A model generated the notes under the pieces. It was not told the origin of the DNA. It saw nothing but the letters and a program-made list of their open reading frames with translations, and searched no databases. Shown piece by piece: positions 46,139-64,000 of a stretch of DNA of 64,000 bases (the stretch's first letter is position 1; each line of letters opens with the position of its first letter). Source of the DNA: Bradyrhizobium sp. CIAT3101 (GTDB taxonomy: Bacteria; Pseudomonadota; Alphaproteobacteria; Rhizobiales; Xanthobacteraceae); NCBI RefSeq assembly GCF_029714945.1, contig NZ_CP121634.1, positions 5,601,001-5,665,000 of the forward strand, written 5' to 3'. The translations under genes and the position numbers were made by a program.

Positions 46139-47578
46139 CTATTCAGCCGCGACTGTGTTTGGCGAACGCCAGACAGCCGACGCATAGAATGCGGGATCGA
46201 AATCATCAGCGATGGAAGCGTTGATCCGGGCCTCGTGTGCTCCGAGATCGTCCAGGAACAGATCCTTGCTGATGCGTGCAACGACGCCTGGAATGTCACG
46301 CTTGAAGCTCGGCACGTCGCCAATCGGCAGGCCGAAGCTGACAAACGCGGCCGGGTTGAACACGTGGATGTTGCGGAGATAAGGCGCACGGCCGGGCTCC
46401 TTCTCCAGGAACTCGTGGCCGGCACCGAGATAGGGATACGCTCCAAAACTATCGTCGGCCTGATCTGCCGGCGGCGCGAAGCGGTCGCGCCACAGCAGGA
46501 TCTCTCGCGCGAACTCGGCAAGCTCCGCCCGCCTGGCGAGATCGACCCGGTAGCCAGTGCCGGCGATGACGAAATCGAACGCGATATCGCCCTTTGTCGT
46601 TGTCGCCAGCAGCCGGCGTCCGAACGGCTTGGCCGACGTCCATGAGGATCCCAGATGAAGATTGAAGTTGGGAAAGCGGACGGCGCGCGCAACCGCGTCC
46701 GGCGGCGCGGTCGAGCCGGCGCGACGGAAGCGGATGGCCTGGTGCCAGCGGACAGCATCCGGCAGCGAGGCATAATTGTCATAGGCGCCGGGATACCCGC
46801 GCGTCCGGATGACCGGCTCCGATGCAAGCCGCTCGCGACGTGCGAACAGATGCACCTCCCTTGCTCCCGCCTCGAGCGCCACCGCCGCAACATCGAATGC
46901 GGACGCGGCGCTGCCGATCACCGCGATGGATTTATCGCGCAGCTTTTCGAAGTCGATCGCCTCGAGCGTATGCGCATAAAGCTCCCGCGGCAGATTTTGC
47001 GACAGGACGTCGGGGATGACCGGGCCACCATTGCTGGGAAAGCCGCTGGCGAGAATGACCTTACGTGCGGTTTCCGTCGCCGGCTTGCCGTCGATCTCGA
47101 TATGCAACCGCAAATGCTCTCCGACCGGCTCGATGCGCAACAGGCGCGTGCGATAGCGCACCTCGATACCCAGCGTCTTGCGGTACCAGTCGAGGTAGGC
47201 CGCCCACTCGACCCGAGGAATGCGGTCGATCGCTTCATAGGCAGCCGCCCCCCGATGCGCTTCATACCAGGCCTGGAAGCTCAGCCCCGGCAAGCCCAGC
47301 TCAGGACCCGCGAGCTCCTTCGGAGTCCGCAGCTTATGCATGCGCGCGTTGGTCAACCAGGGGCCGGACGAAGCAGCGTCGGCCGCGGCATCGATCACCG
47401 TGACCCGTCCGATACCCGCCCTGCGCAATGCGAAAGCGAACGTGCTCCCGGACTGTCCACCGCCGATGATGGCGACGTTATGATCGACGCCATCGCGATC
47501 GGGCACCCAGTTTTGCGGATCAGCCCCGATCAGGCGTAGCGTCTCACGAGCGGTCGCGTCGACATCGGATTGAAGCAT
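46139..47578 (-). CDS. FAD/NAD(P)-binding protein, flavin-monooxygenase-like
   Basis: The 479-residue protein (ATG 47578, AGGTG 6 bases upstream) has an FAD Rossmann site NVAIIGGGQSGSTFAFALRRAG near residue 34 and a second dinucleotide site SIAVIGSAASAFDVAAVALEAG near 210, with the ATG-type motif VIAGTGYRVD near 335. This two-Rossmann layout is that of group-B flavin monooxygenases and lysine N-hydroxylase-like enzymes, but the FMO fingerprint FxGxxxHxxxY/F is not evident. It has two Met and no Cys by count. That sulfur-poor make-up and its position between two uptake systems suggest oxidation of an organosulfur compound (inference). Confidence 0.83.
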   Translation of the reverse strand: MLQSDVDATARETLRLIGADPQNWVPDRDGVDHNVAIIGGGQSGSTFAFALRRAGIGRVTVIDAAADAASSGPWLTNARMHKLRTPKELAGPELGLPGLSFQAWYEAHRGAAAYEAIDRIPRVEWAAYLDWYRKTLGIEVRYRTRLLRIEPVGEHLRLHIEIDGKPATETARKVILASGFPSNGGPVIPDVLSQNLPRELYAHTLEAIDFEKLRDKSIAVIGSAASAFDVAAVALEAGAREVHLFARRERLASEPVIRTRGYPGAYDNYASLPDAVRWHQAIRFRRAGSTAPPDAVARAVRFPNFNLHLGSSWTSAKPFGRRLLATTTKGDIAFDFVIAGTGYRVDLARRAELAEFAREILLWRDRFAPPADQADDSFGAYPYLGAGHEFLEKEPGRAPYLRNIHVFNPAAFVSFGLPIGDVPSFKRDIPGVVARISKDLFLDDLGAHEARINASIADDFDPAFYASAVWRSPNTVAAE

Positions 47579-47930
47579 ATTGCACCTGGATTTGAGGACG
47601 TCAGATGCGGTCAAATCCTAGAAGCCAACGACATTCCGTCAATGAAATGGAATTGGCTTTGTTTTCCGGCGTGCACAACGAATTCATCGTAACGTCTCGG
47701 CTCGCAGAAAGATTTGCACCAGCGGCGCGAGACGCTCCGTAACGACGCGATCCGCATGCCTATTGCGGGCGAGAACCTTACCCGCGCCGTCGTCCATGTT
47801 CCGACGGATCGCCGTTAGATTCATGCTGGCCTCGCTCCAAACAACGTAAATTCATTTCATCGACATCGCCATCGCCTACGACTTACAGTTCGCCTCTACC
47901 GAGCCGCTTTGTTGGAGCTCCAGGAAACAC
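47579..47930. other. Divergent intergenic region in the sulfur island
   Basis: These 352 bases separate the divergent monooxygenase-like and methyltransferase genes; no gene is seen inside. A perfect ATTCC, 11 bases, GGAAT repeat lies at 47633-47653, 55 bases before the monooxygenase start. An AT-rich stretch at 47650-47690 may hold its promoter. The methyltransferase has GGA about 8 bases before its ATG. Confidence 0.5.
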
Positions 47931-48755
47931 ATGTCGTCGTCCGGCCTCATTAGCCTCGAACGGGATACGCCCGAGCTTGCGCGCACCTACGATCAAGCTG
48001 GCATTCTGCAATTTCACCACGGCAAGTTCCTGATCGGCCCACTCGCCGTGAAATCCGGCGAACGTGTGCTCGACATCGGTGCCGGCACCGGCCGGCTCAC
48101 CGAATTCGTCGCCAGCCTGGTTGGCCCCACCGGCAGGGTGATCGGCATCGATCCTCTTGAAAACCGGATCGCCATCGCACGGTTGCGCGAAACTGCGACG
48201 CTGAGCTTCGGTGTCGGCCGCGCCGAGGATTTGGCAAAGTTTGCCCCCTCGGAATTCGACGTCGTCTACCTCAACAGCGTGTTCCACTGGATCGCGGACA
48301 AGCCGCAGGCGCTGCGCGAGATCCGCCGCGTGCTCAAGCCCGGCGGTAGGCTCGGCCTCAACATTCAGGACCCGTCGAAACCGCATCAATCGCGTGTCTT
48401 GCTGCGTGAGGCGATCGAGCTCGCGGGATTCGTAGAACGGAATGGCGAGGCACATCGTGTCCTGGGCGCGACCGACGAACAGCTCAAGGCGCTTTTCACC
48501 GAAGCCGGCTTCATCGACCATCGTAGCGACCTGCGCTCGCTCGTTGACCTCCATATTGACGTCGATTCCATACTCGGATGGTCTGAAGCCAGCGCATTCG
48601 GAAACTTCCTCGAGGGCTTCTCGCCGGCCGAGCGGGAAGCGATCCGGCAAAGCTTTGCAGGGCTCGTGGAAGCGAAGCGGACGCCGGACGGATTGCGCCT
48701 TGAGCGATATCTGCGCTTCGCCTTCGCCCAGAAACCCGCAGGTTCGGCTCCATAA
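47931..48755 (+). CDS. SAM-dependent methyltransferase (class I)
   Basis: The 274-residue protein has the class-I motifs: motif I RVLDIGAGTGRLTEF near 45, acidic residue in VIGIDP near 70, and motif post-II DVVYLNSVFHWI, then RRVLKPGGRLGL. It looks like the Methyltransf_11/arsM-like group, but the paired Cys of arsenite methyltransferases are absent; in fact there is no Cys and no Met after the start. A small-molecule acceptor is likely. It is convergent with the Ssu-type permease gene. The sulfur-free sequence argues it is expressed when sulfur is scarce. Confidence 0.83.
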   Translation: MSSSGLISLERDTPELARTYDQAGILQFHHGKFLIGPLAVKSGERVLDIGAGTGRLTEFVASLVGPTGRVIGIDPLENRIAIARLRETATLSFGVGRAEDLAKFAPSEFDVVYLNSVFHWIADKPQALREIRRVLKPGGRLGLNIQDPSKPHQSRVLLREAIELAGFVERNGEAHRVLGATDEQLKALFTEAGFIDHRSDLRSLVDLHIDVDSILGWSEASAFGNFLEGFSPAEREAIRQSFAGLVEAKRTPDGLRLERYLRFAFAQKPAGSAP

Positions 48756-48789
48756 AGCCTATAGCATCGCGGGTCGGAGATGGCGCATT

Positions 48790-49557
48790 CTAGCTGGTGC
48801 GCCAGGGTATGAGCCTGCGCTCCAGCCAGCTTGCACCGCGGTCGATGAGAAAGCCGATCGACCCCACGACCAGGATCCCGAGCATGACGAGGTCCATGTC
48901 GAAGCGCTCACGGCCCGCGATGATGAGCCCGCCGATGCCGGGGCCTGCCGCCATGAAATATTCGGCGCCGATTGTCGCAAGCCAGGCGTAGATCAGCGCC
49001 AGGTGAAGGCCGGTTAGAAGCGACGGCAGCGCGGCCGGCAGGTAGACATAGACGATGAACTGAAGCCGGTCGAAGCGGAACACTTCGCCGACCTCGACCA
49101 GCTTCGAAGAGGTCGCGCGCACGCCTTCGACCAGGTTGAGAATGACCGGGATGGACGCCGCGAGCGCGATAAAGACGATCTTGGCGATCTCGTCGAAGCC
49201 GAACCAGAGCGAGATCAGGGGAATCCACGCCAGCAGCGCGATCTGCTTCAGTCCGTTGAACCATGTCGTGAAGATGCGGTCCGCGATGCGCGACAGGCCG
49301 AGCAGAAGCCCGACCAGGACACCAATGCCCGATCCCAGCGCGAATCCGAGAAGGTCACGCCGCAGGCTCGCAGCAAGCGCCTCGACCAGTTCGCCGCTCT
49401 TCAACTCTTCCCAGAAGCTGACGCCGACATGCTCCAGCGGCGGCAGGAACTGGCGGTTCACGAGGCCCGAATGGCTTGCGACCTCCCACAGAAGCAGCAG
49501 CCCAAGCGGAAGGACCAGCCCGCGGCCTGCGGTGCGAAGCGCAGTGCTATCTGACAC
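48790..49557 (-). CDS. ssuC: Ssu/Tau-type ABC permease, second subunit
   Basis: The 255-residue permease starts GTG 49557, inside the last codons of the upstream permease gene (11-base overlap). It has six membrane helices and the BPD_transp_1 EAA loop (EVGEVFRFDRLQFIVYVYLPAALPSLL). SsuC, TauC and nitrate permeases share this form. It is the last gene of the monooxygenase-binding protein-ATPase-permease-permease run. Having two different permease genes suggests a heterodimer rather than the usual homodimer. Confidence 0.9.
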   Translation of the reverse strand: MSDSTALRTAGRGLVLPLGLLLLWEVASHSGLVNRQFLPPLEHVGVSFWEELKSGELVEALAASLRRDLLGFALGSGIGVLVGLLLGLSRIADRIFTTWFNGLKQIALLAWIPLISLWFGFDEIAKIVFIALAASIPVILNLVEGVRATSSKLVEVGEVFRFDRLQFIVYVYLPAALPSLLTGLHLALIYAWLATIGAEYFMAAGPGIGGLIIAGRERFDMDLVMLGILVVGSIGFLIDRGASWLERRLIPWRTS

Positions 49558-50407
49558 GGTCGATCCGCCAACGCTGCAGCCGGGCTTCGACCACCGCCAG
49601 CGCCTTGTCGCTGACAAAGCCGATGATGCCGATGACGATCATGGCGACCAGTACCGTGTCGAGCCAGAACATCTGGCGGCCCCAGACCAGGAGGTAGCCG
49701 AGCCCCTCGGAGGAGGCCAATAGCTCGACGCTGACCAGCGCGATCCAGGCATGGGTCAAGCCGTAGCGCAGGCCCGTGAAGATCGGCGGCACGGCACCGG
49801 GAAGCACGACATGACGCAGCATCTGCAAGGGCGTGAAGCGGAAGGTCTCGCCGACTTCCACGAATGCCTTCGGCACGTTGGCGATGCCGGCGCTGGTGTT
49901 CATAACGACGGGCACGAAAGCGGCCTTGGCGATCACCACGATCTTGAGCCCCTCGCCGATGCCGAGCAGCAGCATTGCCAGAGGAATCCAGGCGAGCGCC
50001 GGCACCTGGGCGATCGCCGTGAAGAGCGGACGCACATAATCGTCCACCCGGCGTGACAGCCCCATCGCGGAGCCGATCACCAGACCACCAACCGCCCCGA
50101 TCGCGAAGCCGTAAGCAACACGGCGCAAGCTATAGCCAGCATGCTGGGCGAGCTCGCCGCTGGCGACCATGTCGCGCAGCGTATGAAGGACGTCGCCAGG
50201 CCGCGGCAGGATTTGCTCCGGCAGCCAGCCGCGATCGGCGCCAATGATCCAAACCGGCAAAGCCACGGCGGGCAGAACCAGCAGCCAGGCGAACGAGGCC
50301 AGATAGCGGAGCACAGCCTGTCTCGCACCGTCAGGAACAACGCGCGCGAAGCCGAAGAGCCAGGAAGCGCGCGGTGCGGACGACGACCGGATGACTGCGT
50401 CGCTCAT
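49547..50407 (-). CDS. ssuC: Ssu/Tau-type ABC permease, first subunit
   Basis: A 286-residue permease with a longer N-terminus, six helices and EAA loop EVGETFRFTPLQMLRHVVLPGAVPPIF. ATG 50407 overlaps the ATPase stop (ATGA). It is similar to but clearly distinct from the following permease; the two share VGExFRFxxLQ in the cytoplasmic loop. Confidence 0.92.
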   Translation of the reverse strand: MSDAVIRSSSAPRASWLFGFARVVPDGARQAVLRYLASFAWLLVLPAVALPVWIIGADRGWLPEQILPRPGDVLHTLRDMVASGELAQHAGYSLRRVAYGFAIGAVGGLVIGSAMGLSRRVDDYVRPLFTAIAQVPALAWIPLAMLLLGIGEGLKIVVIAKAAFVPVVMNTSAGIANVPKAFVEVGETFRFTPLQMLRHVVLPGAVPPIFTGLRYGLTHAWIALVSVELLASSEGLGYLLVWGRQMFWLDTVLVAMIVIGIIGFVSDKALAVVEARLQRWRIDRVR

Positions 50408-51249
50408 GCGCTTGCTCCGGCCAGCAGGTCGTGCGCAACGGAACCACCATCGCCGTCGCCCAGAGCCCGCAGGATATCATTGCGGATACGAACGAGGTCG
50501 TCATTGCTCCGGGACCGCGGCCGCGGCGCGGTCACGTCGAAAATGCGGGCCACGCGGCCCGGACGCGGCGCGAGCACGATGACGCGATCGCCGAGCAGAA
50601 CGGCTTCATCGACATCATGGGTCACGAGGATCATGCTGATCTTCTCATGCGCCCAGATGCGCTGAAGCTCGATCTGGAGCCGTGCACGCGTCAATGCGTC
50701 AAGCGCACCAAAGGGCTCGTCGAGCAGCAGGAGCCGGGGACGGTTGACGAGACCGCGGGCGATCGCCGCGCGCTGCGCCATGCCGCCGGACAACTGATGC
50801 GGATAGGCTTCCGCGAAGCCATCGAGACCGACCAGCGAAATGTGCGCAGCGACCGAGTCCTTCTTGGCGCGTTCGCTGAGCGGCGCATTCTTGAGGCCGA
50901 GCGCGATGTTCTGCCTGACCGTGGCCCAGGGAAACAGCCTCGGCTCCTGGAACACGATGCCGCGATCCAGGCTGGTGCCCGCGATCGGTTCGCCGTCCTG
51001 GCTGATGCTGCCCCTGAAATCGCGGTCCAGTCCGGCGATCAGCCGCAGCAAAGTCGACTTTCCGCATCCGCTCGGCCCGAGCAGGACGACGAATTCGCCG
51101 CCGGCGACGTCGAGCGATACATCCCTCAGGGCGTCGAACGCCTCGCCGTTGACGACGAAGGACCGCGAAACGTTGCGGACCTCGAGGTGTCCGCCGCTCC
51201 GGTCTGCCTCAACCGCCGGCGCCGCTTCTGATTGCGCCACGGACATCAT
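50404..51249 (-). CDS. ssuB: Ssu/Tau-type ABC transporter ATPase
   Basis: The 281-residue ATPase has Walker A GPSGCGKS near 57, Q-loop FQEPRLFPW, signature LSGGM, Walker B LLLLDEPFGALD and switch His in VTHD. These, with the typical RRIW-type region (ELQRIWAHEKISMILVTHD), place it with sulfonate/taurine/nitrate importers. Its start overlaps the binding-protein stop (51249/51246). It energises both permeases encoded downstream. Confidence 0.93.
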   Translation of the reverse strand: MMSVAQSEAAPAVEADRSGGHLEVRNVSRSFVVNGEAFDALRDVSLDVAGGEFVVLLGPSGCGKSTLLRLIAGLDRDFRGSISQDGEPIAGTSLDRGIVFQEPRLFPWATVRQNIALGLKNAPLSERAKKDSVAAHISLVGLDGFAEAYPHQLSGGMAQRAAIARGLVNRPRLLLLDEPFGALDALTRARLQIELQRIWAHEKISMILVTHDVDEAVLLGDRVIVLAPRPGRVARIFDVTAPRPRSRSNDDLVRIRNDILRALGDGDGGSVAHDLLAGASA

Positions 51250-52331
51250 TGCCCTACTGCCAGCGGTTTCCCGTTCGCGTCATATTCGTTCCAGTACCCC
51301 TCGAGACCCTGCTGCTTGAGGGCGGTGTTGAGGAACGACCGGTCGAACCATCCGTCGATGTCGACGTCACGGCGCAGCAGGCCGAACTCCTTTGCCTGCT
51401 TTGCCTGGAAGCGATAGCTCTCGATAATTGAGGCGTCGATGATCGGCGAGTTGCGGTACTTCAGTTTCTGATTGGAGAAATCGAAGCGATAGCCAGAGAC
51501 CGGAAAGCCCGTGCGGGCCGAGATCTCGAAGAAGGCCTCCCGATTGGCTTCCTCCGACGACCAGCGCGCGGCGCGCACGATCGCCGATACGATCTTCTGG
51601 GTGACGTCCGGATGCGCCTTGATGAACGCGTCCTGCCCGATCAGCGTGGAGTGGCGCTCATAGGCCGGATTGTCGCCCTTGGTGGTGTAGACGATCTCAG
51701 CGATGTTCTTCTCGGCGAGGCTCGCCAGGGGAAAATTGCCAAAAGCAGCGTCGATATCCCTGGATGTCAGCGCCGCGTTGGTGGTCGCCGTGTCCATGTT
51801 GATGACCTGCACGTCGCGCTCCTGCAGGCCATTGCCGGCGAGCACCTTTACGGCCGCCAGATGGTTGTTGGTCCCCCGGAAGATCGAGACCTTCTTGCCG
51901 CGCAAATCCGCGACCTTGCGGATCGGCGAACCTGAGGGTACGGCCAGATAGATCGGCGCGTGGGCCCCGGATGCCATCAGGATTCTGGTCTTGAGGCCGT
52001 TGGCGCGACCAATGATCTCCGGCAGATCGCCCTGGATGGCGAAATCGAGCTGGTTGTTGGCAAAGGCCTCGTTGACCGCAGGCCCTGCCCCCTTGAAAAA
52101 GTACCACTCGACCTTCACGTCCGGCCGGTCGCTAAGCTCCTTGTCGAGATAGTGCTCGGAATGCGCGACGCCGGCGGAGGAGCCGCCCGAGAATTGCCTG
52201 TTGTCCGCACCGACCGACGCAAAGCCGATCCGCACCGTGATGGTATCGGCCGCCACGCCTGGCGACGCTGCCCCGACCGAGACGAGTATTGCGGCCAACA
52301 CGGACCGCAAGAGAGCGCGTTTTCCGATCAT
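51246..52331 (-). CDS. Ssu-type ABC substrate-binding protein
   Basis: From ATG 52331 (AAGGAAC upstream) the 361-residue protein has a signal peptide (cleavage near GVAA, residue 28) and the NMT1/SsuA fold: IRIGFASVGADNRQ-like start, FAIQGDLPEIIGRANG, PSGSPIRKVADLRGKKVSI, AAFGNFPLASL. SsuA-type proteins bind aliphatic sulfonates or taurine. It has three Met and no Cys by count. It is encoded between a luciferase-like monooxygenase and the ATPase, which is the arrangement for import followed by desulfonation. Confidence 0.88.
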   Translation of the reverse strand: MIGKRALLRSVLAAILVSVGAASPGVAADTITVRIGFASVGADNRQFSGGSSAGVAHSEHYLDKELSDRPDVKVEWYFFKGAGPAVNEAFANNQLDFAIQGDLPEIIGRANGLKTRILMASGAHAPIYLAVPSGSPIRKVADLRGKKVSIFRGTNNHLAAVKVLAGNGLQERDVQVINMDTATTNAALTSRDIDAAFGNFPLASLAEKNIAEIVYTTKGDNPAYERHSTLIGQDAFIKAHPDVTQKIVSAIVRAARWSSEEANREAFFEISARTGFPVSGYRFDFSNQKLKYRNSPIIDASIIESYRFQAKQAKEFGLLRRDVDIDGWFDRSFLNTALKQQGLEGYWNEYDANGKPLAVGQ

Positions 52332-52356: not shown

Positions 52357-53709
52357 CTATTCGGCCGCCACCGCGGTGTGGCGGTGCGCCGGTTGCGGCC
52401 TGCGCAGGCCGAGATGATCTCGTAAGGTCGTGCCCTCGTACTCATCGCGGAACAGGCTGCGGCGGCGCAGCTCGGGAACGACCAGCCTGATGAAATCGGT
52501 CAGGCCGCCCGGCAGCGTGGGCGCCATGATGTTAAAACCGTCGGCGCCGTAGTTCTGGAAGCGCTCTTCAAGCTGGTCGGCGATCTGCGTGGGCGTGCCC
52601 ACCAACTGCCAATGGCCGCGTGCGCCGGCGATCCTCAGATAGAGATCGCGCACCGTCAGTCCTTCCCGGCGCGCCAGCTCGAGCAGAAGCACCTGACGAC
52701 TCTTGCCGCCTTCGGTTTCCTTCAAGACCGGTATGGGACCATTCGGATCGGCATCGACGATCTCGGGGGCGCCAAGGAAGCCCGCGAGCAAATCGAGACC
52801 GACCTGGGGCAGGATCAGCGACTGCAACTCATCGAACTTTTCCTTTGCCTCGCTTTCGCTCTCCGCGACCACGGGAAAGATGCCGGGCAGGATCTTCAGA
52901 TCGTCCTGGTCGCGGCCATATTTCGACAGCCGCCCCTTCACGTCCGAATAGAACGAGACCGCGTCTTCAAGCGTCTGCTGCGCGGTGAAGATCACCTCCG
53001 CCGTTCGTGCCGCGAGTTCCTTGCCCGGCCCGCTCGAGCCCGCCTGCACCAACACGGGACGCCCCTGTGGCGAGGGCGGGATGTTCAGGGGGCCGCGCAC
53101 CCTGAAGTGGCGGCCCTGGTGGTTGAGAAGATGAAGCTTATCCGGATCATAATAGCGGCCGCTTTCCCGATCGCGCGGGAACGCATCGTCCTCCCAGCTG
53201 TCCCACAGGCCGAGCACCACGTCGGCGAACTCGTCCGCACGTGCGTAACGCTCAGCGTGGGGGCTGAGACCTTCGTGATTGAAGTTCAGCGCCGCGGAGG
53301 CCTCGGTCGAGGTGACCAGATTCCAGCCAGCGCGACCGCCACTCAGGCGGTCGAGAGAGGCGAACTGCCGCGCGACGTTGAACGGTTCGTTGAAGCTGGT
53401 CGAGACGGTCGCGACCAGTCCGATCCTGGACGTGACCGCAGCAAGCGCCGACAGCAGCGTCAGCGGCTCGAACGGGTAGACACCGCTATGCGCCTTGCGA
53501 CTGGACGCCTCAATGCGATCGATGCGGACGCCAACCATGTCTGCGAGGAAGATGGCATCGAACTTGGCTTCCTCCGCGATCCGCGCGAACTGAACGAAAT
53601 CCGCCAGCGATTGGCTGTCGGAGGCTTGCGGTGAGCGCCACGCGGCGAGATGGTGACCGGTGAACAGCAGGAAGGCGCCGAGGGACAATTTTTCCTTGCG
53701 ACGTGACAT
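52357..53709 (-). CDS. LLM-class flavin-dependent monooxygenase, NtaA/DmoA/DszA-like
   Basis: The 450-residue enzyme starts MSRRKEKLSLGAFL. Luciferase-like features: GHHLAAWRSP, AKFDAIFLADMVGV, LDRLSGGRAGWNLVTS (FMN site), NHQGRHFRVRGPLN, PVLVQAGSSGPGKELAAR and the final DGFNIMAPTLPGG. Relatives use FMNH2 and O2 to cleave C-N or C-S bonds. It is first in the ssu-type operon, 25 bases before the binding protein, so it likely desulfurises the imported compound. Three Met and no Cys by count. A separate flavin reductase is required but not in view. Confidence 0.9.
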   Translation of the reverse strand: MSRRKEKLSLGAFLLFTGHHLAAWRSPQASDSQSLADFVQFARIAEEAKFDAIFLADMVGVRIDRIEASSRKAHSGVYPFEPLTLLSALAAVTSRIGLVATVSTSFNEPFNVARQFASLDRLSGGRAGWNLVTSTEASAALNFNHEGLSPHAERYARADEFADVVLGLWDSWEDDAFPRDRESGRYYDPDKLHLLNHQGRHFRVRGPLNIPPSPQGRPVLVQAGSSGPGKELAARTAEVIFTAQQTLEDAVSFYSDVKGRLSKYGRDQDDLKILPGIFPVVAESESEAKEKFDELQSLILPQVGLDLLAGFLGAPEIVDADPNGPIPVLKETEGGKSRQVLLLELARREGLTVRDLYLRIAGARGHWQLVGTPTQIADQLEERFQNYGADGFNIMAPTLPGGLTDFIRLVVPELRRRSLFRDEYEGTTLRDHLGLRRPQPAHRHTAVAAE

Positions 53710-55462: not shown

Positions 55463-55708
55463 CACGCTTCTCCGTCTTTGCGCCTCACGAACAACAGGTC
55501 TCACCTGTTGCTTGTCGCCTCCATGTTAGGCACGTGCGCGGAGAATTTGCTTTTGTTGTTTCAAGCGCCAACGCGCGCTGGTTCACGCGAGCCGATGCGG
55601 GTGCAGCAGCAAAATTTTCATTACGCGATCCGGCACGTCGCGGGATTGATTGTCCGATCCTTCGGTGAATTATTGTCTCGATGACACACGCGAACGCGGG
55701 CGATCAGC

Positions 55709-57313
55709 ATGAATAAATTCTCGCGCAGGCAAATTGCCAAGGCGTTGTTGGCCTCCGGCGTTGCCGCCGGTAGTATCGCGCCCCGACGATTGTTTGCAGC
55801 CGAAGAGCCGAGGCGCGGCGGAACGCTGAACGCCGTGATTCAGCCCGAACCTCCGATTCTCGTGAGTCTGACACACACCGCCGGGCCGACCACGCGCGTC
55901 AGCGCGAAAGTCACCGAAGGGCTCGTGACGTTCGACCTCGACTTCAATCCGCGACCTCAGCTCGCGACGGCCTGGCAAATCAGCGAAGACGGGCTGCACT
56001 ACCGATTCGAGCTGCGGCGCGGCGTGAAATGGCACGACGGCAAGGACTTCACCTCGGCGGACGTCGCCCACTCTATCGAGCTGCTGAAGCAGCATCATCC
56101 GCGCGGACGCGGCACGCTTTCATCGGTGCGGGAGGTCCTCACCCCCGACCCGCATGTTGCGGAGATCGTGCTCGACAAGCCGGCGCCGTACCTGCTCGCG
56201 GCGCTCACCGCCTCGGAATCGCCGATCGTTCCACGCCACGTCTACGAAGGCTCCGATCCCCTCGCCAATCCCAACGGCCGCGCACCGATCGGAACCGGCC
56301 CCTTCGTGTTCAAGGAGTGGAAGCAGGGCAGCCATATCCTGCTCGAGCGCAATCCGAACTATTGGGATCCGGGCAAACCGTATCTCGACCGCATCGTCAT
56401 TCGCTTCATCGCCGACGCAAATGCCCGCGCCGTGGCGCTCGAGACCGGAGAAATTCACTACGCGCCCGACACGCCGGTGCCTCTCGGCCAGATCGAGACA
56501 CTCAAGGCCAATCCGAACCTCGTGATCGAAACGCGCGGTTACGACTATCAGCCGATCGTCTACCGGCTCGAGTTCAATCTCGCCAATCCCTATTTCGCCA
56601 AGCCGGAGGTGCGCCGGGCCGTCGCCCATGCCATCGACCGCGACGCGATCGGCCGCGTCGTGTTCTATGGCTGGAGCGAGAATGCGCCGGCTGCCATCAG
56701 CCCCGCTCTGAAGCAATTCTACAACCCGGACATTCCCCGGCACGACTTCGACCCGAAGAAGGCCGAAGCCCTGCTTGACGCGGCGGGCCTCCCCCGCGGC
56801 GCCGACGGCACCCGCTTCAAGGTCTTCCACGACTACATGCCCTACAGCGAGACCTATCAGCAACTGGGTGCTTATACGCGCCAGGCGCTCGCCAATATCG
56901 GCATTGGCGTCACGCTGCGCGCCCAGGACGTACCGACCTGGTTCAAGCGCACCTACACCAACCGCGATTTCGACTTCATGAGCAATGGCATGAGTCACTC
57001 CTTCGATCCGACAGTCGGAGTCCAGCGGCTCTATTGGTCGAAGAACTTCAAGCCCGGCGTGCCGTTCTCGAACGGCTCGGGCTACAGCAATCCGGAGGTC
57101 GACCGGTTGCTCGAAGCGGCCGCTGTCGAGAGCGATCCGGCCAAGCGACGCGAATTGTTTCGAGCCTTCCAGGTCATCATCGCCACCGACCTGCCCGACA
57201 TCAACCTGGTGACGGGCGCGAACCTGACGATCGCCAACCGCAAGCTGCGGAACCACACCGTAACGATCGACGGCCCGTCCGCGAACTTCGCCGACGTCTG
57301 GCTGCAGGCCTGA
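55709..57313 (+). CDS. Dpp/Opp-type substrate-binding protein (paralogue)
   Basis: The 534-residue family-5 binding protein has a signal peptide with RR (MNKFSRRQIAKALLASG). It aligns along its length with the 53873 protein: GGTLNAVIQPEPPILVS, YRFELRRGVKWHDGKDFTSADV, PRGRGTLSSV, IGTGPFVFKEWKQGSH. It has four Met and no Cys by count. It is the first gene of an operon with the SfnC-like and monooxygenase genes (22 bases and 21 bases apart), which links its ligand to sulfur-compound oxidation. Confidence 0.9.
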   Translation: MNKFSRRQIAKALLASGVAAGSIAPRRLFAAEEPRRGGTLNAVIQPEPPILVSLTHTAGPTTRVSAKVTEGLVTFDLDFNPRPQLATAWQISEDGLHYRFELRRGVKWHDGKDFTSADVAHSIELLKQHHPRGRGTLSSVREVLTPDPHVAEIVLDKPAPYLLAALTASESPIVPRHVYEGSDPLANPNGRAPIGTGPFVFKEWKQGSHILLERNPNYWDPGKPYLDRIVIRFIADANARAVALETGEIHYAPDTPVPLGQIETLKANPNLVIETRGYDYQPIVYRLEFNLANPYFAKPEVRRAVAHAIDRDAIGRVVFYGWSENAPAAISPALKQFYNPDIPRHDFDPKKAEALLDAAGLPRGADGTRFKVFHDYMPYSETYQQLGAYTRQALANIGIGVTLRAQDVPTWFKRTYTNRDFDFMSNGMSHSFDPTVGVQRLYWSKNFKPGVPFSNGSGYSNPEVDRLLEAAAVESDPAKRRELFRAFQVIIATDLPDINLVTGANLTIANRKLRNHTVTIDGPSANFADVWLQA

Positions 57314-57335: not shown

Positions 57336-58517
57336 ATGAGCTTCGATCTCGACACGTCAAACCCACACTTCGCGAAGGCCGTGGACCTGCGCGAGATTTT
57401 TGCCCGGGATGCAGCGGAACGCGACCGCGCCGGTGGAAAGCCGGTCGAGCAACTGGCGCAGCTCAAGGCGAGCGGGTTGCTCAATCTCCTGATCCCGCAG
57501 GAATTCGGCGGCTTCGGCGAGCGCTGGTCGACCGCGTACAAGATCGTCCGCGAATTCGCCAAGGTGGATGGCGCGCTCGGTCACCTCTACGGCTATCATT
57601 TCGGCTCCCAACATGCCGCGCATCTACGCGGAACGACCGAACAGGCCGCGGACATCTTCCGGCGATCGGCCGCCGGCAATTGGTTCTGGGGCAACACCGC
57701 CAACAGCTTCTCCAAGAGCCTATTCGGCCGCAGGGATGGCGAGGGCTTCATTCTCGACGGCTATCGTCCCTTCACATCCGGATCGCACATTGCCGACTAT
57801 CTCCAGGTCGCGTGGGAGGATCACGAGACCAATGCCCGCAGCTTCGCCGCCATTCCGGCGAGCCGCGACGGCATCCATGTCGAGAACGACTGGGACGGAT
57901 TCGGGCAGCGGCAGACCGGAAGCGGCCGGGTGAGCTACAAGGGCGTGCGCGTCCATCGCGGCGAAGTGCTTGAGTATCAGCCGGATGGCGGCCGTCCCTA
58001 CCAGACCATCACACCCTTCCTGCGGCAATCCACCCTACTCAATGTCTTCATCGGCAGCGCGCAAGGCGCACTGATCACCGCCCGCGACTACACCCGCGAC
58101 AAGTCCCGTCCGTGGATCCATTCCGACGTCGACCAGCATACCGACGACCCCTGGATCAAACGGGTCTATGGCGAGTTCTATACGCGCGTGAAAGCCGCGA
58201 CGCTGCTGGCGGATGAAGCCGCCGCAGCACTTGACTGGGTGTGGTCACGCGGACGCGACCTGACGGCACAGGAGCGCGGCGAAGCTTCCGTGGTGATCGC
58301 GGGCGCCAATGTTCACGCCGGCGAGGTCGCACTGGATGTCACCAGCCGCATCTTCGAGGTCATGGGGGCGCGCTCGGCCACGATTGCCAACGGCTACGAT
58401 CGCTTCTGGCGTAATGTGCGTATCCACACCCTGCACAATCCGGCCGAATACAAGACGCGCAACGTCGGGAGCTGGTTTCTCACCGGCGCTCATCCCGCCC
58501 CTTCCGCGTTCCAATAA
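57336..58517 (+). CDS. Acyl-CoA dehydrogenase-like flavin monooxygenase, SfnC/DszC type
   Basis: The 393-residue protein has the acyl-CoA dehydrogenase fold: helical N-terminal domain (LKASGLLNLLIPQEFGGFG), middle beta domain (FTSGSHIADYLQVA; FGQRQTGSGRVSYKGVRV) and C-terminal helices (RIFEVMGARSATIANGYDRFWRNVRIHTLHNP). The catalytic Glu of true dehydrogenases is not evident, and the RNVRIHTLHNP ending is that of DszC/SfnC monooxygenases. SfnC-type proteins act in sulfone/sulfide use in Pseudomonas. Two Met and no Cys by count. It likely oxidises sulfur or an adjacent carbon using FMNH2 and O2. Confidence 0.87.
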   Translation: MSFDLDTSNPHFAKAVDLREIFARDAAERDRAGGKPVEQLAQLKASGLLNLLIPQEFGGFGERWSTAYKIVREFAKVDGALGHLYGYHFGSQHAAHLRGTTEQAADIFRRSAAGNWFWGNTANSFSKSLFGRRDGEGFILDGYRPFTSGSHIADYLQVAWEDHETNARSFAAIPASRDGIHVENDWDGFGQRQTGSGRVSYKGVRVHRGEVLEYQPDGGRPYQTITPFLRQSTLLNVFIGSAQGALITARDYTRDKSRPWIHSDVDQHTDDPWIKRVYGEFYTRVKAATLLADEAAAALDWVWSRGRDLTAQERGEASVVIAGANVHAGEVALDVTSRIFEVMGARSATIANGYDRFWRNVRIHTLHNPAEYKTRNVGSWFLTGAHPAPSAFQ

Positions 58518-58538
58518 TCGATTTACGAAAGTTTCGTC

Positions 58539-59939
58539 GTGTCCAAGATCATCCAGGTCAACGGGTTTGCCATCTTCAGCCCGGTCCATCTCTCTCCCGG
58601 GCTGTGGCGCCATCCGGACGACCGCTCGCTCGACTTCTCCACGCTCGATTACTGGACCGACGTTGCCAAGATCCTCGAAGCTGGCAAGTTTGACTCCATC
58701 TTCATCGCCGACGGCATCGGCATCCACGACGTCTATGCCGGAACGGCGGATGCGGCACTCAGCACCGGCGCACAGATCCCGAAGCTCGATCCCATGCTGC
58801 TGGTCTCGGCCATGGCGCATGTCACGGAGCATCTGGGCCTCGGCATCACGGCACCCGTGTCGTACGAGCCGCCTTTCACGTTGGCCCGCCGCTTCTCGAC
58901 GCTTGATCACTTGACCAAGGGCCGCGTCGCCTGGAACATCGTCACCGGCTATTCCAACGCGGCATCGCGAGCCGTCGGCCGCGACAGCATCATGGCGCAC
59001 GATCCGCGCTACGATCTCGCCGATGAATTCCTCGATGCCGTCTATGCGCTCTGGGAAGGCAGCTGGGACGATGAGGCTGTCATCGTCGACCCGATCCGCG
59101 GGGTCATTGCCGATCCGTCGCGCATTCGAAGGGTCCATCACCACGGTACGCACTTCAAGATCGATGCCGTCCACCTCGTTCATCCCTCGCCGCAGCGGAC
59201 ACCGTTCCTGTTTCAGGCGGGCGCGTCCAACCGCGGCAAGGATTTTGCGGCAAGGCATGCCGAGGCCGTGTTCCTGGGTGAGCATTCGAAGACGCCGACC
59301 GCCAGGAACGTCGCCGAGACGAGGGCTCGCGCACGCGCGTTCGGCCGCGACGGCCGAGACATCCGCTTCTACTCCCTGATCACCGTCATCGTGGGAGAGA
59401 CCAGAGCCGAAGCAGACGCGAAGTACCGGGACTATCAGCGCTACATCGATCCCAAGGGATCCCTCGCCCTGTTGTCCGGCTGGACGGGCATCGATCTGTC
59501 TCGCTACAGCCTCGATGATCCGTTCCCGACCGTCAAAAAGGACAATTCGGTCACCTCGATGATCGACTCCTTCTCGCGCGCGGAGCGCCCGTGGACGATC
59601 CGTGAGATCATCGAGCACAATGGCATCGGCGGGCGTGGGCCCGTCATCGTCGGTTCGCCCGCTGAGATCGCCGATGAGCTGCAGTCCTGGATCGCCGAGA
59701 CCGATATAGACGGCTTCAATCTCAGCTACGCGGTGACACCCGGCGGCTATCAGGATTTCGCCGAGCTCGTCGTGCCCGAATTGCAGCGGCGTGGCGTTTA
59801 CAAGACTGAGTACGCGCCGGGTACGCTGCGCGAGAAGATCTTCGGGTCCGGACAGGCACGTCTGCCGTCATCGCATCCTGCGGCGCGCTTCCGGGATCAA
59901 GTTGCCGCCAATCCGCAACCCGAAACCACGTCGGCCTAG
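58539..59939 (+). CDS. LLM-class flavin-dependent monooxygenase, DmoA/DszA/SnaA-like
   Basis: The 466-residue enzyme from GTG 58539 shows the NtaA/SnaA/DszA pattern: FDSIFIADGIGIHDVY, RRFSTLDHLTKGRVAWNIVTG, DPIRGVIADPSRIRRVHH, PFLFQAGASNRGKDFAARHAEAVF and GFNLSYAVTPGGYQDF. Dimethyl-sulfide and dibenzothiophene-sulfone monooxygenases belong here. It is the third gene after the binding protein and the SfnC-like gene. Five Met and no Cys by count. Substrate is an unproven organosulfur compound. Confidence 0.9.
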   Translation: MSKIIQVNGFAIFSPVHLSPGLWRHPDDRSLDFSTLDYWTDVAKILEAGKFDSIFIADGIGIHDVYAGTADAALSTGAQIPKLDPMLLVSAMAHVTEHLGLGITAPVSYEPPFTLARRFSTLDHLTKGRVAWNIVTGYSNAASRAVGRDSIMAHDPRYDLADEFLDAVYALWEGSWDDEAVIVDPIRGVIADPSRIRRVHHHGTHFKIDAVHLVHPSPQRTPFLFQAGASNRGKDFAARHAEAVFLGEHSKTPTARNVAETRARARAFGRDGRDIRFYSLITVIVGETRAEADAKYRDYQRYIDPKGSLALLSGWTGIDLSRYSLDDPFPTVKKDNSVTSMIDSFSRAERPWTIREIIEHNGIGGRGPVIVGSPAEIADELQSWIAETDIDGFNLSYAVTPGGYQDFAELVVPELQRRGVYKTEYAPGTLREKIFGSGQARLPSSHPAARFRDQVAANPQPETTSA

Positions 59940-59956
59940 ATCCCATGCGCCTGCGC

Positions 59957-61159
59957 TCACCCGACCTCGAGCTTCGGCACCGCGTGCCGCAATCCGGCCT
60001 GCTCCATCAGCGGCAGCACGCGCCGGCCGAAGAAATCGAGGTCGGGCTTGAAGTCGAAGAAGCTGAGCTGAAGCCCGTCGATCCCCGCCTTCTTCAGCTC
60101 CACGAATTGCTCCACCACCTGCTCGGGCGTGCCGATCACCTCGATGTTGCCGCCGATCGCCCGCCGTTTGGGCGCATCGCGGCCGACGCGGCCCTTCCAG
60201 GCGTGCGCGTCACTGGCAAAGTTCTGCATGCTGGCGACCGGATCGAGATGCTCGACGATGGCATCGTGGTATTGCCAGGTCTCACGCTCGCTCTCGCGGC
60301 AGATGACCATGGGGTTCAGCAAAGTACGGACCTCGCGGCCGACATCGAGCGCCGATTGCTTGACGCGCTGGGCATGCGCCGGCAGCACCTCGATCGCGCT
60401 CTCGAACGACGAGCCGGCCGGGCTCGTAATGAACACGATGTCGGAATAGCGGCCGGCGAATGCGATGCCGGCATCCGATCCGGTCGCGTTGACCAGGATC
60501 GGCCGGCCAAATCGCGGCTTGGGCGTCACGAAGGCGTTGCTGAGGCGCCAGGGCGATTGGCCGGAGAACGAGAAGTTCTCCTCGTCGCTCCACAGCCGCT
60601 GAATCACCTCCAGGAATTCGGCGGCAAGCTCGTAGCGCCGATCATGCTCGATCTGATTCCAGCCGAAGGCTTCGTGCTCGACGGCGCGGTGACCGGTCAC
60701 GACATTGATGCCCCAGCGACCTCCCGAGATGTGGTCCAGCGTCGCGCCGTATTTGGCGAGGTGCAGCGGATGGATCGGACCATAGAGGACATGGATGGTC
60801 GAGATCAGCATGATCCGCGACGTCACAGCAGCCAGCGACGCCGTCGTGACGAAAGAATCGAGCGCCTGTCCGGTAAACACGCCGCCATAGCCGCCCTTCG
60901 GCAGCCATTGCGACAGTGCGAACACGAGATCGAAGCCGAACGCTTCGGCCGCGAGCGTCAGATCGCGGTTGTAGTCGAACGTCCAGGTCGTCGATCGCGG
61001 CAAGGTCGAGGCGCTCCAGCCGCCCGCCTGGATCGGCAGAAACAAGCCGAGCAGCAAGGGCTGCTTGAGCGACTTGGCGAGAGGACTTTCGGGAAACTGC
61101 GCCGGGCTCGGAAACACGGGCCAACCAACAATTTCACCCGGCTTGTGCACTATCGTCAT
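59957..61159 (-). CDS. LLM-class flavin-dependent monooxygenase, SfnG/SsuD-like
   Basis: From ATG 61159 the 400-residue protein has TWTFDYNRDLTLAAEAFGFD, DHISGGRWGINVVTGHRAVE, EHDRRYELAAEFLEVIQRLW and RPILVNATGSDAGIAFAGRYSD, as in FMNH2-dependent dimethylsulfone (SfnG) and alkanesulfonate monooxygenases. A 35-residue N-terminal extension precedes the barrel. It has five Met and one Cys by count. It is convergent with the DmoA-like gene (17 bases apart) and divergent from the Dpp-type importer, sharing a regulatory gap. Confidence 0.88.
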   Translation of the reverse strand: MTIVHKPGEIVGWPVFPSPAQFPESPLAKSLKQPLLLGLFLPIQAGGWSASTLPRSTTWTFDYNRDLTLAAEAFGFDLVFALSQWLPKGGYGGVFTGQALDSFVTTASLAAVTSRIMLISTIHVLYGPIHPLHLAKYGATLDHISGGRWGINVVTGHRAVEHEAFGWNQIEHDRRYELAAEFLEVIQRLWSDEENFSFSGQSPWRLSNAFVTPKPRFGRPILVNATGSDAGIAFAGRYSDIVFITSPAGSSFESAIEVLPAHAQRVKQSALDVGREVRTLLNPMVICRESERETWQYHDAIVEHLDPVASMQNFASDAHAWKGRVGRDAPKRRAIGGNIEVIGTPEQVVEQFVELKKAGIDGLQLSFFDFKPDLDFFGRRVLPLMEQAGLRHAVPKLEVG

Positions 61160-61210
61160 GATCGTACCCGCCTTGCTGACGCGTGGCATTCGCCACACAT
61201 CGGTGGCGTC

Positions 61211-61358: not shown

Positions 61359-62345
61359 ATGTCGACCATGCAGCGCATCGCAAAGACTTTACGTCGTACG
61401 CTATGGCAAGAGATCCCGACCGTGATCGGAATCATCATCATCAATTTTTTTCTGCTGCAACTCGCGCCTGGTGATGCCGCTGACGTTCTGGCGGGCGAGT
61501 CCGGGTCCGCCACGATGGAGACAGTGGCAGCCTTGCGATCGCGCTTCGGCCTCGACCAACCGGTCCTCGTGCAGCTTGTCGCCTATCTGGACAATCTCGC
61601 CCATTTCAGCCTCGGCAATTCGCCGCGCTATAATCTGCCCGTCGCCGACATCATCGGCCAGCGGTTGCCCGGCACAGTTGCCTTGATGACCACCGCTCTC
61701 GTGATCGCGCTCGCCGGCGGCATCGCCCTCGGCATCGTGATGGCGACCTTCGCCGGACGCTGGCCGGATCGGGTGATCTCGATCATCGTCACCCTGTTCT
61801 ATTCGATCCCCGGCTTCTGGATCGGGCTGATGCTGATCCTGCTGTTCTCGGTCAAGCTGGGATGGCTGCCGAGCGGCGGCTCCACGACGATCGGCGCGAC
61901 AAGTACCGGTTTCGCGGCCGTGCTGGATCGGGCGCGCTACATGGTGCTTCCAGCATTGTCGCTCGCGCTGTTCTACATCGCGATCTATTCACGACTGGCA
62001 CGCGCGGCAATGCTCGAAGCGCAGTCCCAGGACTACGTTCGCACGGCCGCGGCAAAGGGATTGTCGCCGCTCGCCATCACGGTGCGCCATGTCCTGCGCA
62101 ACGCGCTGCTGCCGGTCACGACGGTTGCCGGCATGCATTTCGGAGGCCTGCTCGGCGGCGCCGTGGTGGTCGAGACCGTCTACAGCTGGCCAGGCCTCGG
62201 CCGGCTCGCCTTCGAGGCGGTGATGAGCCGCGATTTCAGCGTGCTGCTTGGAATTCTCCTCCTGTCCTCCCTGCTCGTGATCATCGCCAATATGACGGTC
62301 GATCTCGTGCAGGCTTGGCTCGACCCTCGCATCGAGGCCCGTTGA
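61359..62345 (+). CDS. Dpp/Opp-type ABC permease (DppB-like)
   Basis: A 328-residue permease with the DppB N-terminus (TVIGIIIINFFLLQLAPGD), FGLDQPVLVQLVAYLDNL, six helices and EAA loop AAAKGLSPLAITVRHVLRNALLPV. ATG 61359. It starts an importer operon with DppC- and DppD-like genes. No binding protein is in this operon; the two orphan family-5 binding proteins at 53873 and 55709 are the likely suppliers. Confidence 0.93.
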   Translation: MSTMQRIAKTLRRTLWQEIPTVIGIIIINFFLLQLAPGDAADVLAGESGSATMETVAALRSRFGLDQPVLVQLVAYLDNLAHFSLGNSPRYNLPVADIIGQRLPGTVALMTTALVIALAGGIALGIVMATFAGRWPDRVISIIVTLFYSIPGFWIGLMLILLFSVKLGWLPSGGSTTIGATSTGFAAVLDRARYMVLPALSLALFYIAIYSRLARAAMLEAQSQDYVRTAAAKGLSPLAITVRHVLRNALLPVTTVAGMHFGGLLGGAVVVETVYSWPGLGRLAFEAVMSRDFSVLLGILLLSSLLVIIANMTVDLVQAWLDPRIEAR

Positions 62346-62347
62346 TC

Positions 62348-63325
62348 ATGACCGACACCGCACTCCAGTCCGCCGCATCGACCGTGCGAAACACGACTGA
62401 CAAGCCTGCGCCCGCGACAGAGAATGTCGAGTGGCCGAACATCCATGCGCCGGACACGCATGTCGTTGCCGACGATGCAGACCGCGCGCGACCGCATTTG
62501 CTCCGCCGCCTAACACGCAATCCGTCGGTCATCGCCGGTGGCCTACTGCTGCTGGCGATCGTCGTCGCGGCAGCGCTGGCTCCCGTACTTTATCCCGGCG
62601 ATCCCCTCGGAATGGTGGCGCGCCCGCTGCTCTGGCCTGGACAGGATCTCGAATTTCCTCTCGGAACCGATTCACTTGGCCGTGACGTCGCGGCAGGCTT
62701 GATGCACGGCGCACGCGTATCGCTGCTGATCGGATTTGTCGCCACCACAATCGGCCTCACGGTCGGCATCCTCATCGGCGCCACGGCCGGATATCGCGGC
62801 GGCCGCATCGACGACCTTCTCGTCCGCGTGATCGAATTGTTCCAGACGGTGCCAAGCTTCATCCTGCTCGTCGTCCTGGTCGCAATTGCACAGCCGTCCA
62901 TCGTGACGGTGACCTGGGCGATCGGGCTCGTCACTTGGCCGACGATCGCCCGGCTGGTCCGCGCCGAATTCAGGGTACTGCGCGAGAAGGAATTCGTGAT
63001 GGCCGCGCGGAGCCTCGGCTTTGGCCACACGCGGATCGTTTTTCGCGAAATTCTGCCCAACGCCCTACCCGCGATCATCGTCACCGCCTCGGTGATGGTG
63101 GCCTCCGCGATCCTGATGGAAGCGGCGCTGTCGTTCCTCGGTCTCGGCGACCCCAATGTCGTGAGTTGGGGCAGCATGATCGGTTCGGGACGTGAGTTGA
63201 TCAGGACGGCCTGGTATCTCACGGCACTCCCCGGCGTCGTCATCGTCCTCACCGTGCTGTCGCTCAACCTGATCGGCGACGGCCTGACTGATGTGCTCAA
63301 TCCTCGTTTCAGCCGGGAGCGTTGA
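62348..63325 (+). CDS. Dpp/Opp-type ABC permease (DppC-like)
   Basis: The 325-residue permease from ATG 62348 begins 2 bases after the DppB-like stop. A long polar N-terminus (about 60 residues, Thr/Asp-rich) precedes [15 protein letters not shown], then [16 protein letters not shown], six helices and EAA loop [24 protein letters not shown]. It pairs with the DppB-like permease. Confidence 0.93.
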
Positions 63326-63326
63326 C

Positions 63327-64000
63327 GTGACGACCCTTCTCGACGTCCAGGACCTCACGATAGGTTTTCCGAGCGCCACGCCCGTGCGAAACCTGAGCTT
63401 CAATGTTGCGCCAGGTGAGACCCTTGCCGTCGTTGGCGAGTCCGGCTCAGGCAAGTCGCTGACCGCGCTGGCGCTGATGCAGCTGCTGCCCAAGACCGCG
63501 CGTATCACATCTGGCCACGTCCGACTCGGCGGAGAGGACCTCCTATCGCTCTCCGAGATCGAGATGCGCTGCCGGCGCGGCCGCGACATTGCGATGATCT
63601 TCCAGGAGCCGATGACCTCGCTCAATCCCGTGCTGACGATCGGGCGGCAGATCACCGAGGTGCTCTATCTGCATCGCGGGCTGACCAGGGCGCAGGCGCA
63701 GCGCGAGGCGGCAGCGCTGCTCGATCTCGTCAGGATTCCGAATCCGGAGCGCTGCCTCGAGGATTATCCGCACCGCCTCTCGGGCGGGATGCGTCAGCGC
63801 GTCATGATCGCCATTGCGGTCGCGTGCCGGCCCAAGGTCCTGATCGCCGACGAGCCGACCACGGCGCTCGACGTGACCATCCAGGCGCAAGTGCTCGAAT
63901 TGCTCGACAGGCTGCGGCGAGAACTCTCATTGTCCCTCCTGCTCATCACCCACGATCTCGGCCTCGTCGGCCAATGGGCCGATCGCGTCATCGTCATGTA
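63327..64000 (+). CDS. Dpp/Opp-type ABC ATPase (DppD-like), 5' part
   Basis: GTG 63327, with GGGAGC about 7 bases upstream, opens at least 224 codons that run off the right edge. Walker A GESGSGKS near residue 38, Q-loop [11 protein letters not shown], signature LSGGMRQR, Walker [13 protein letters not shown] and [11 protein letters not shown] are complete. Whether it is a single or double ATPase (as at 40543) cannot be told because the gene is cut. Confidence 0.92.

Follow-up and report, generated by a model that had tools for sequence, protein, structure and literature searches.

What keeps methionine (Met) and cysteine (Cys) almost absent from a run of neighbouring proteins in Bradyrhizobium sp. 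CIAT3101, and what does this absence tell about the function of the genes? The question is raised by a window of 64,000 nucleotides (the whole stretch analysed here, G000:C1:5601001-5665000, with a guanine plus cytosine (GC) content of 63%), which lies within a single-contig genome of 9,368,452 bases (9.37 Mb); the closest named relatives of one window protein belong to Bradyrhizobium, at 85 to 93% identity. The initial annotation had described positions 46139 to 64000 as an organosulfur-scavenging island with a sulfur-sparing proteome. Our results make it very likely that the region is a sulfur-scavenging island whose proteins have been depleted of Met and Cys under lasting and specific selection, with an organosulfur chemistry suggested by the protein families and an induction suggested by known physiology.

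Depletion was assessed in nine soluble proteins. These are a flavin adenine dinucleotide (FAD)/NAD(P) monooxygenase-like protein (FMO, hereafter FAD oxygenase; 46139..47578, reverse strand, Pfam Pyr_redox_2 and Lys_Orn_oxgnase, 1 Met and 0 Cys after the start in 479 residues), an S-adenosylmethionine (SAM)-dependent methyltransferase-like protein (47931..48755, forward, Pfam Methyltransf_11, 0 Met and 0 Cys after the start in 274 residues), an SsuA-like binding protein (51246..52256, reverse, Pfam NMT1, 2 Met in 336 residues), three luciferase-like (LLM) flavin monooxygenases (LLM1, 52357..53709, reverse, 2 Met in 450 residues; LLM2, 58539..59939, forward, 4 Met in 466; and the SfnG/RutA-like LLM3, 59957..61189, reverse, 5 Met and 1 Cys in 410), two family-5 solute-binding proteins (SBP5a, 53873..55462, reverse, 0 Met and 0 Cys after the start in 529 residues; SBP5b, 55709..57313, forward, 3 Met in 534) and an MsuC/DszC-like monooxygenase with the acyl-CoA-dehydrogenase fold as matched by Pfam (57336..58517, forward, 1 Met in 393 residues). 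Recounted with our own choice of starts, they hold 18 Met besides the starts and one Cys in 3,871 residues, matching within start-codon choice the 3,886 residues, 26 Met including starts and one Cys counted in the initial annotation. The proteins it had named as ordinary neighbours are indeed ordinary: 15364-16452 contains 14+1 Met and 4 Cys in 362 residues, and 21596-22468 contains 11+1 Met and 5 Cys in 290.

Genes were called with a purpose-made codon-based caller in which Met and Cys codons are neutral, except in the first recount of the window. The background comprises 225 genes from 16 evenly spaced 20-kb stretches, a sample of 320 kb of the 9.37 Mb rather than the whole genome, to which the stretches L034, L041 and L048 contributed just 3-4 genes each; the main comparison was made with the 137 soluble background genes of at least 200 residues. 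Met and Cys amount to 2.10% and 0.76% in all 225 genes and to 2.04% and 0.71% in the 137 soluble ones, while the 174 background genes of at least 200 residues have a median Met+Cys of 2.74% and a 5% quantile of 0.97%. The block is well below this sampled proteome of its own organism. None of 20,000 random nine-gene background sets was as low (lowest set 0.92%, block 0.49%). Relative to background, Met (0.23) and Cys (0.04) are the two lowest of the 20 residues, followed by Thr at 0.81, and Phe and Trp are each raised 1.46 times. In-frame ATG makes up 0.46% in the block versus 2.03% in the background, and in the next frame 2.07% versus 1.70%, so the depletion resides in the reading frame. Eight of the nine genes are low one by one (binomial P 4.8e-3 to 4e-7). 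Two of the 174 background genes are free of Met and Cys; since lone low genes occur elsewhere, a single one is weak proof, and the notable feature is that so many low genes stand side by side.

This depletion is specific and persistent, and is kept by selection beyond what descent alone would leave, in five window proteins and in one neighbour, a binding protein of a sugar-type importer located past the right end of the window. Among the best 120 relatives of the methyltransferase, the FAD oxygenase and the sugar-type binding protein (out of 1037, 1754 and 2451, own copies of the first two included), 115, 119 and 119 have under 1% Met+Cys, and 79, 0 and 76 have neither residue. Neutral evolution was simulated under LG with gamma shape 1.0 on a midpoint-rooted FastTree tree, starting at the root from the protein of the window or of the neighbour and using genome residue frequencies; database copies of the genome's own two proteins were removed and the window protein was used as both row and root. 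One row each was dropped as too gappy from the SBP5a, SBP5b and LLM1 sets. Observed and simulated Met+Cys, the relatives not being independent of each other, were 0.10% and 0.96% for the methyltransferase, 0.28% and 1.03% for the FAD oxygenase, 0.10% and 0.86% for the sugar-type binding protein, 0.05% and 1.11% for SBP5a, 0.38% and 1.68% for SBP5b, and 0.47% and 1.76% for LLM1, none of the 200 simulations being as low in any of the six sets; plain LG frequencies gave the same outcome for the first three. Two permeases of the same block, labelled dppB and dppC here and run with ordinary roots and membrane-gene frequencies, fell within their simulations (dppB, 3.83% observed versus 3.09% simulated, 188 of 200 as low or lower; dppC, 2.25% versus 2.88%, 20 of 200). 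The conclusion of selection follows from simulations that start from sulfur-poor roots and exceed the observed content, from the neutral behaviour of same-block permeases and from the agreement of the paralogue trees.

Within the genome, 29 LLM and 31 family-5 binding proteins were matched, of which 27 (L012 and L018 gave no gene) and 30, respectively, were read. The 30 binding proteins span 0.00-4.14% Met+Cys, those of the window being tied lowest (0.00%, shared with the neighbouring L061 and with L065 near 5.887 Mb), 4th (0.62%) and 5th (0.75%); the 27 LLM proteins span 0.27-4.67%, with the window's three 4th, 6th and 12th lowest (0.45, 0.86 and 1.30%). With cut-offs of 1.0% and 1.4% that were picked after the values were seen, the low label needs 7 changes on a tree of 26 LLM proteins (L017, a fused frame, omitted and L022 trimmed; at least 4 changes on starred branches; shuffled mean 8.9, 67-71 of 500 as few) and 4 changes among the 30 binding proteins (at least 3 on starred branches; shuffled mean 6.4, 4-7 of 500 as few). 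Low and ordinary paralogues are thus intermingled on both trees; the label is partly clustered, yet a single origin is insufficient to account for it. The Met-replacement count is small, and in the low LLM rows Met is still the commonest residue at those columns (14). Two very similar LLM genes about 400 kb apart (L003 and L004, at 8.43 and 8.84 Mb) each encode 1 Met and no Cys.

Depletion is not confined to this genome. In the 31 callable of 34 related loci, mostly from named genomes including Bradyrhizobium, Rhizobium, Mesorhizobium, Chelatococcus, Ancylobacter, Variovorax and Pseudomonas, 177 of 360 largely non-membrane genes of at least 200 residues are under 1% Met+Cys, the loci having been selected by a low protein, which explains about one gene per locus; by the same rule the background of the own genome gives 10 of 149. 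Relatives under 1% number 21 of 21 for SBP5a, 28 of 31 for SBP5b, 15 of 17 for LLM1, 6 of 6 for the DszC-like protein and 4 of 18 for the SfnG-like protein, in which overlong starts in L080-L082 and L094 inflate the Met+Cys figures; for dppB and dppC they number 0 of 15 and 0 of 22. A close SBP5a was found in only 2 of 24 same-genus genomes (93 and 88%), so the island is patchy within the genus.

The limits of the island differ from those first drawn. Low genes begin further left, at about 40543, with a complete dipeptide-type ATP-binding cassette (ABC) importer of 0.75 to 1.32% Met+Cys, and the run extends to 61.2 kb. This importer, on the reverse strand, comprises a double ATPase (40543..42252, Pfam ABC_tran in two stretches and oligo_HPY, 7 Met+Cys in 569 residues), two permeases (42249..43163 and 43160..44077, both Pfam BPD_transp_1, with 4 Met in 304 and 3 Met in 305 residues) and the family-5 binding protein SBP5c (44081..45706, 4 Met besides the start and 2 Cys in 541 residues, or 1.11% when the longer start is taken). 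It is bordered on the left by a LysR-type regulator, a candidate regulator only, that is not low (39645..40502, forward, Pfam HTH_1 and LysR_substrate, 6 Met+Cys in 285 residues). Adjoining this border is a called frame of 193 residues without Met or Cys (38954-39535), and at the opposite extreme is a hydrophobic called frame of 116 residues with 14 Met and 2 Cys (36648-36998), which could encode a small membrane protein or not be a real gene. Between the methyltransferase and the SsuA-like protein lie, on the reverse strand, a permease (48790..49557, Pfam BPD_transp_1, 3 Met in 255 residues), an SsuC-like permease (49547..50407, 7 Met in 286 residues, top NCBIfam models SaoP and SsuC, both under cut-off) and an ATPase (50404..51249, Pfam ABC_tran, 3 Met and 1 Cys in 281 residues) called SsuB-like from its neighbours. 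On the forward strand, the right end of the window holds dppB (61422..62345, Pfam BPD_transp_1, 9 Met in 307 residues, not low), the oligopeptide-type dppC (62348..63325, Pfam BPD_transp_1 and OppC_N, 6 Met in 325 residues) and the first part of an ATPase gene that continues past the window end (63327..63998, Pfam ABC_tran, not low), followed by a gene resembling dipeptide/oligopeptide ATPases (L030:273-1256). At 2.94%, 1.85% and 4.48% Met+Cys, these three genes (61422-63998) show no clear depletion, which makes the block non-uniform up to 64000. Of the initial description, the presence of genes of organosulfur type is supported, as is a specific and persistent selection that acts on them against Met and Cys; its extent is not. 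No tRNA genes were found in the window.

Low genes continue among ordinary ones to the right of the window, up to about 5.688 Mb. They encode an acyl-CoA-dehydrogenase-type SfnB-like protein (1 Met+Cys in 409 residues), an alpha/beta hydrolase (L030:8723-9724, 0 in 333), a TauA-like binding protein (1 in 327), a family-5 binding protein (0 in 536), an NtaA-type LLM protein (4 in 459) and the sugar-type ABC importer (L030:14338-19007, which is G000:C1:5679338-5684007), with two binding proteins (2 in 345 and 0 in 344), a permease (5 in 320) and an ATPase (3 in 500). Interspersed are an ATPase (9 in 327), an AsnC-type regulator (8 in 169) and another ordinary gene (8 in 282). A second sulfur cluster at 5.901-5.925 Mb (L032 and L033, G000:C1:5901418-5924746) likewise mixes low and ordinary genes; it includes two MetQ/NlpA-type binding proteins (1 in 260 and 0 in 265), an O-acetylhomoserine sulfhydrylase-type (MetY-type) enzyme above its subfamily cut-off (0 in 439), a LysR regulator (L032:6353-7207, 2 in 284), a flavin reductase (3 in 190), an SsuA-like protein (0 in 352) and TauD (1 in 317). 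Elsewhere, at L142:15456-17205, a 2-hydroxyacid dehydrogenase (0 in 316) and a class II aldolase (2 in 260) are low and have no evident sulfur role.

The organosulfur substrates and chemistry of the island are suggested by family membership and structural likeness. LLM1 (564.7 bits) and LLM2 (533.4 bits) pass the NtaA/DmoA subfamily model TIGR03860 (cut-off 279.7 bits), and the three family-5 binding proteins pass PF00496 (SBP_bac_5, cut-off 32.4 bits) with 286.9 (SBP5a), 242.6 (SBP5c) and 311.9 bits (SBP5b). The solved structures closest to LLM1 are MoxC/YtnJ (1yw1, 6ask), matched over residues 5-440 of 450, and LLM1 also matches DszA and dimethyl-sulfide monooxygenase; the 57336-58517 protein is nearest to methanesulfinate monooxygenase (PDB 6u76) and DszC, and LLM3 is nearest to dimethylsulfone monooxygenase (PDB 8t0u) and RutA. 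These nearest relatives, with equivalog cut-offs missed, suggest as putative chemistry an oxidation of a thioether or sulfinate with carbon-sulfur cleavage by reduced flavin. From 39.6 to 64 kb, no scanned gene matched a flavin-reductase family; one flavin reductase is that of the second cluster.

The divergently transcribed FAD oxygenase and methyltransferase (46139-48755) are less readily assigned. By single sequence the oxygenase matched no solved structure, and a profile search gave a weak match to ornithine monooxygenase. Proteins matching it at E 1e-100 or better occur in 6 of 41 genomes searched, all of the same genus and including its own. The five remaining genomes hold the pair between TauD and LLM genes, in a cluster with SsuA-, SsuB-, SsuC-like, flavin-reductase and acyl-CoA-dehydrogenase-type SfnB-like relatives that corresponds to the second cluster of the present genome (proteins 71 to 98% identical), where the pair is missing. 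In the gap left there (L033:2061-2541), a stretch of about 205 bases matches the oxygenase-TauD spacer of three of these genomes, and another of 43 to 72 bases matches the oxygenase-methyltransferase spacer of four. The own pair is located in the window, about 272 kb from the gap, and about 170 bases after its oxygenase match the TauD-side spacer in three genomes. It is 69 to 84% identical to the other copies, below the rest of the cluster and clearly so in three genomes, and may derive from a distant source rather than having simply moved. Either way, the pair accompanies sulfur genes in two settings, and its composition and its neighbours elsewhere suggest that it belongs to the same response. 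Tentatively, and with slightly more doubt than confidence, the near-absence of Met and Cys could be used to assign such genes: the pair would perform an undescribed organosulfur step that uses SAM despite sulfur shortage, and the sugar-type importer would take up organosulfur compounds, perhaps a thio- or sulfo-sugar.

A common control of the block was sought in its upstream regions. In the own genome, an expectation-maximization (EM) motif finder scored 63.9 versus 56.7-64.9 in dinucleotide shuffles at width 14 and 79.7 versus 74.5-76.6 at width 18; one of its runs returned mostly coding sequence at gene starts. The divergent promoter region between SBP5a and SBP5b (55463..55708) contains blocks conserved in an alignment of six Bradyrhizobium-type genomes and is a possible operator. 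Upstream of SBP5a in 19 genomes, that of the window included, an AT-rich motif near AGAAAAACATTCTT scored 72.4 versus 51.8-53.6 in shuffles at width 16, 60.3 versus 45.0-53.0 at width 14 and 82.8 versus 63.2-70.8 at width 20, the shuffles having had fewer random starts (60 versus 150), an imbalance in favour of the real set. When Bradyrhizobium was excluded from training, the model gave, at score 6, 6 matches in 17,554 low-gene positions versus 9 in 67,188 background positions, and no window region above score 4.5; the AT-rich element upstream of SBP5a relatives may be taken as no more than a lead. No known RNA element reached its gathering score, and the LysR regulators (39645..40502 and others) reached no equivalog cut-off among the 25 NCBIfam models listed for each. 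The initial annotation had also held that composition marks the whole block, unassigned genes included, as one starvation response. The pair does carry the mark, but as stated the claim is not supported: the transporters of 61.4-64 kb show no clear depletion, the searches established no common operator, and the pair sits in a different sulfur cluster in the five other genomes that have it. A single response of the whole block would be an extrapolation.

The proposed working of the island is as follows. Importers would take up sulfur-containing organic compounds, which LLM and DszC/MsuC-like monooxygenases would oxidise with reduced flavin, splitting the carbon-sulfur bond. If, as known physiology suggests, the genes are made in quantity under sulfur shortage, every Met or Cys spared would count, and by this proposal selection would strip the abundant soluble parts (binding proteins and oxygenases) and mostly spare the low-copy permeases.

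Several observations weigh against this interpretation. Permeases appear low too in two importers, at 40.5-45.7 kb and at L142:6739-11946 (where the family scan covered the binding protein only), which would not be expected if abundance alone governed the depletion. LLM3 is only mildly low (6 Met+Cys in 409 residues, P 0.066) and fails the SfnG dimethylsulfone monooxygenase model TIGR04021 (192.5 versus a cut-off of 382.95 bits); the 57336-58517 protein fails both DszC NF043015 (321.9 versus 850 bits) and SfnB TIGR04022 (265.7 versus 430.9 bits), and the SsuA-like protein is just short of TIGR01728 (158.4 versus 163.5 bits). NtaA-type LLM and family-5 binding proteins also have non-sulfur substrates as families. 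K-mer and dyad counts, the six-genome promoter alignment and the EM motif finder established no shared operator for the block. Ten of the fifteen lowest background genes were family-scanned, and while one (L036:6703-7656, NMT1/SsuA-like) looks sulfur-related, a sulfur role is not evident in the other nine. In a more distant set of 23 loci (L114 omitted, 16 of the remaining 22 not callable), 8 of 56 genes in the 6 callable loci are likewise under 1%.

Given the breadth of the families, the island could serve non-sulfur compounds, such as the chelators nitrilotriacetate or ethylenediaminetetraacetate or nitrogen compounds, and owe its low content to sulfur-scavenging ancestors, as the non-sulfur members of NtaA/DmoA and SBP5 would allow. 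This is improbable, however, because neutral drift from a sulfur-poor root would restore about 0.9 to 1.8% Met+Cys and in none of the six sets was any of the 200 simulations as low as observed; moreover, ordinary-content paralogues exist in the same families and the neighbours are Ssu-, MsuC/DszC- and SfnG-like. Avoidance of oxidation, rather than sulfur economy, might also have removed these residues, as several of the proteins are oxygenase-like and flavin monooxygenases that leak peroxide or meet sulfite would endanger oxidation-prone positions. Yet the binding proteins, the methyltransferase and the sugar-type binding protein are equally low or lower, and Met+Cys rises to 4.67% among the genome's other LLM proteins, which makes this cause quite improbable. 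Least credible, and hardly to be entertained, is an explanation by base composition, codon bias or protein class (secreted or periplasmic): although the window has a GC content of 63% and some of the proteins are importer binding proteins, strong depletion is limited to Met and Cys and does not extend to codons for Ile and Trp or to next-frame ATG, the enzymes are as low as the binding proteins, and other family-5 binding proteins of the genome reach 4.14%. Sulfur economy is, at the level of sequence, a well supported explanation of the depletion.

Sulfur sparing is an old idea that has been shown mostly for single proteins or via expression, and earlier studies, in yeast, E. coli and cyanobacteria, are reportedly those of Baudouin-Cornu, Fauchon, Mazel and Marliere. 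In the present case it can be read from the DNA by itself, across about twenty genes of one region that are not all adjacent, and the controls are paralogues, permeases of the same block and neutral simulations. Should the mark prove reliable, gene runs that lack Met and Cys would offer a cheap route to organosulfur pathways not yet described from bacteria of soil and roots. YtnJ, which we take to be CmoJ, is together with MoxC the nearest solved relative of LLM1; the genes around LLM1 differ from the Bacillus YtnJ/CmoJ operon. CmoJ is part of an S-alkylcysteine salvage pathway (PMC10863075).

The enzymes of the window fall under the SfnG, SfnB and DszC cut-offs, and in this they differ from the Pseudomonas/Acinetobacter sulfone and sulfide pathway of SfnG-MsuC-MsuD/SsuD and Dms1-3, whose dimethyl sulfide monooxygenase genes are induced about 400 to 3,800 times in Acinetobacter (PMC13352529). 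For Candidatus Pelagibacter ubique under sulfur limitation, the sulfur amino acid percentage of the responding genes has been tabulated; unlike here, no such island is described in the available text of that study (PMC5069961). Titles and abstracts of the open-licence literature yielded nothing on such a Bradyrhizobium island or on the oxygenase-methyltransferase pair. The principle itself, invoked by the initial annotation, that proteins induced by sulfur limitation avoid sulfur residues, is already known: in Rhodococcus qingshengii IGTS8 grown on dibenzothiophene, DszA, DszB, DszC, SfnG, TauD and MetY are poor in Cys and Met, in contrast to Cys/Met-richer proteins that are not or only slightly induced (PMC8557817). 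The Bradyrhizobium island resembles that case in having the same kinds of sulfur-acquisition enzymes with few or no Cys and Met, and differs from it in being known from sequence alone, whereas induction in IGTS8 was followed by proteomics (PMC8557817). It goes beyond the IGTS8 case, as presented in the available text (PMC8557817), in that its low proteins extend to importers, a methyltransferase and an FAD oxygenase, and in that simulation was used to test for selection.

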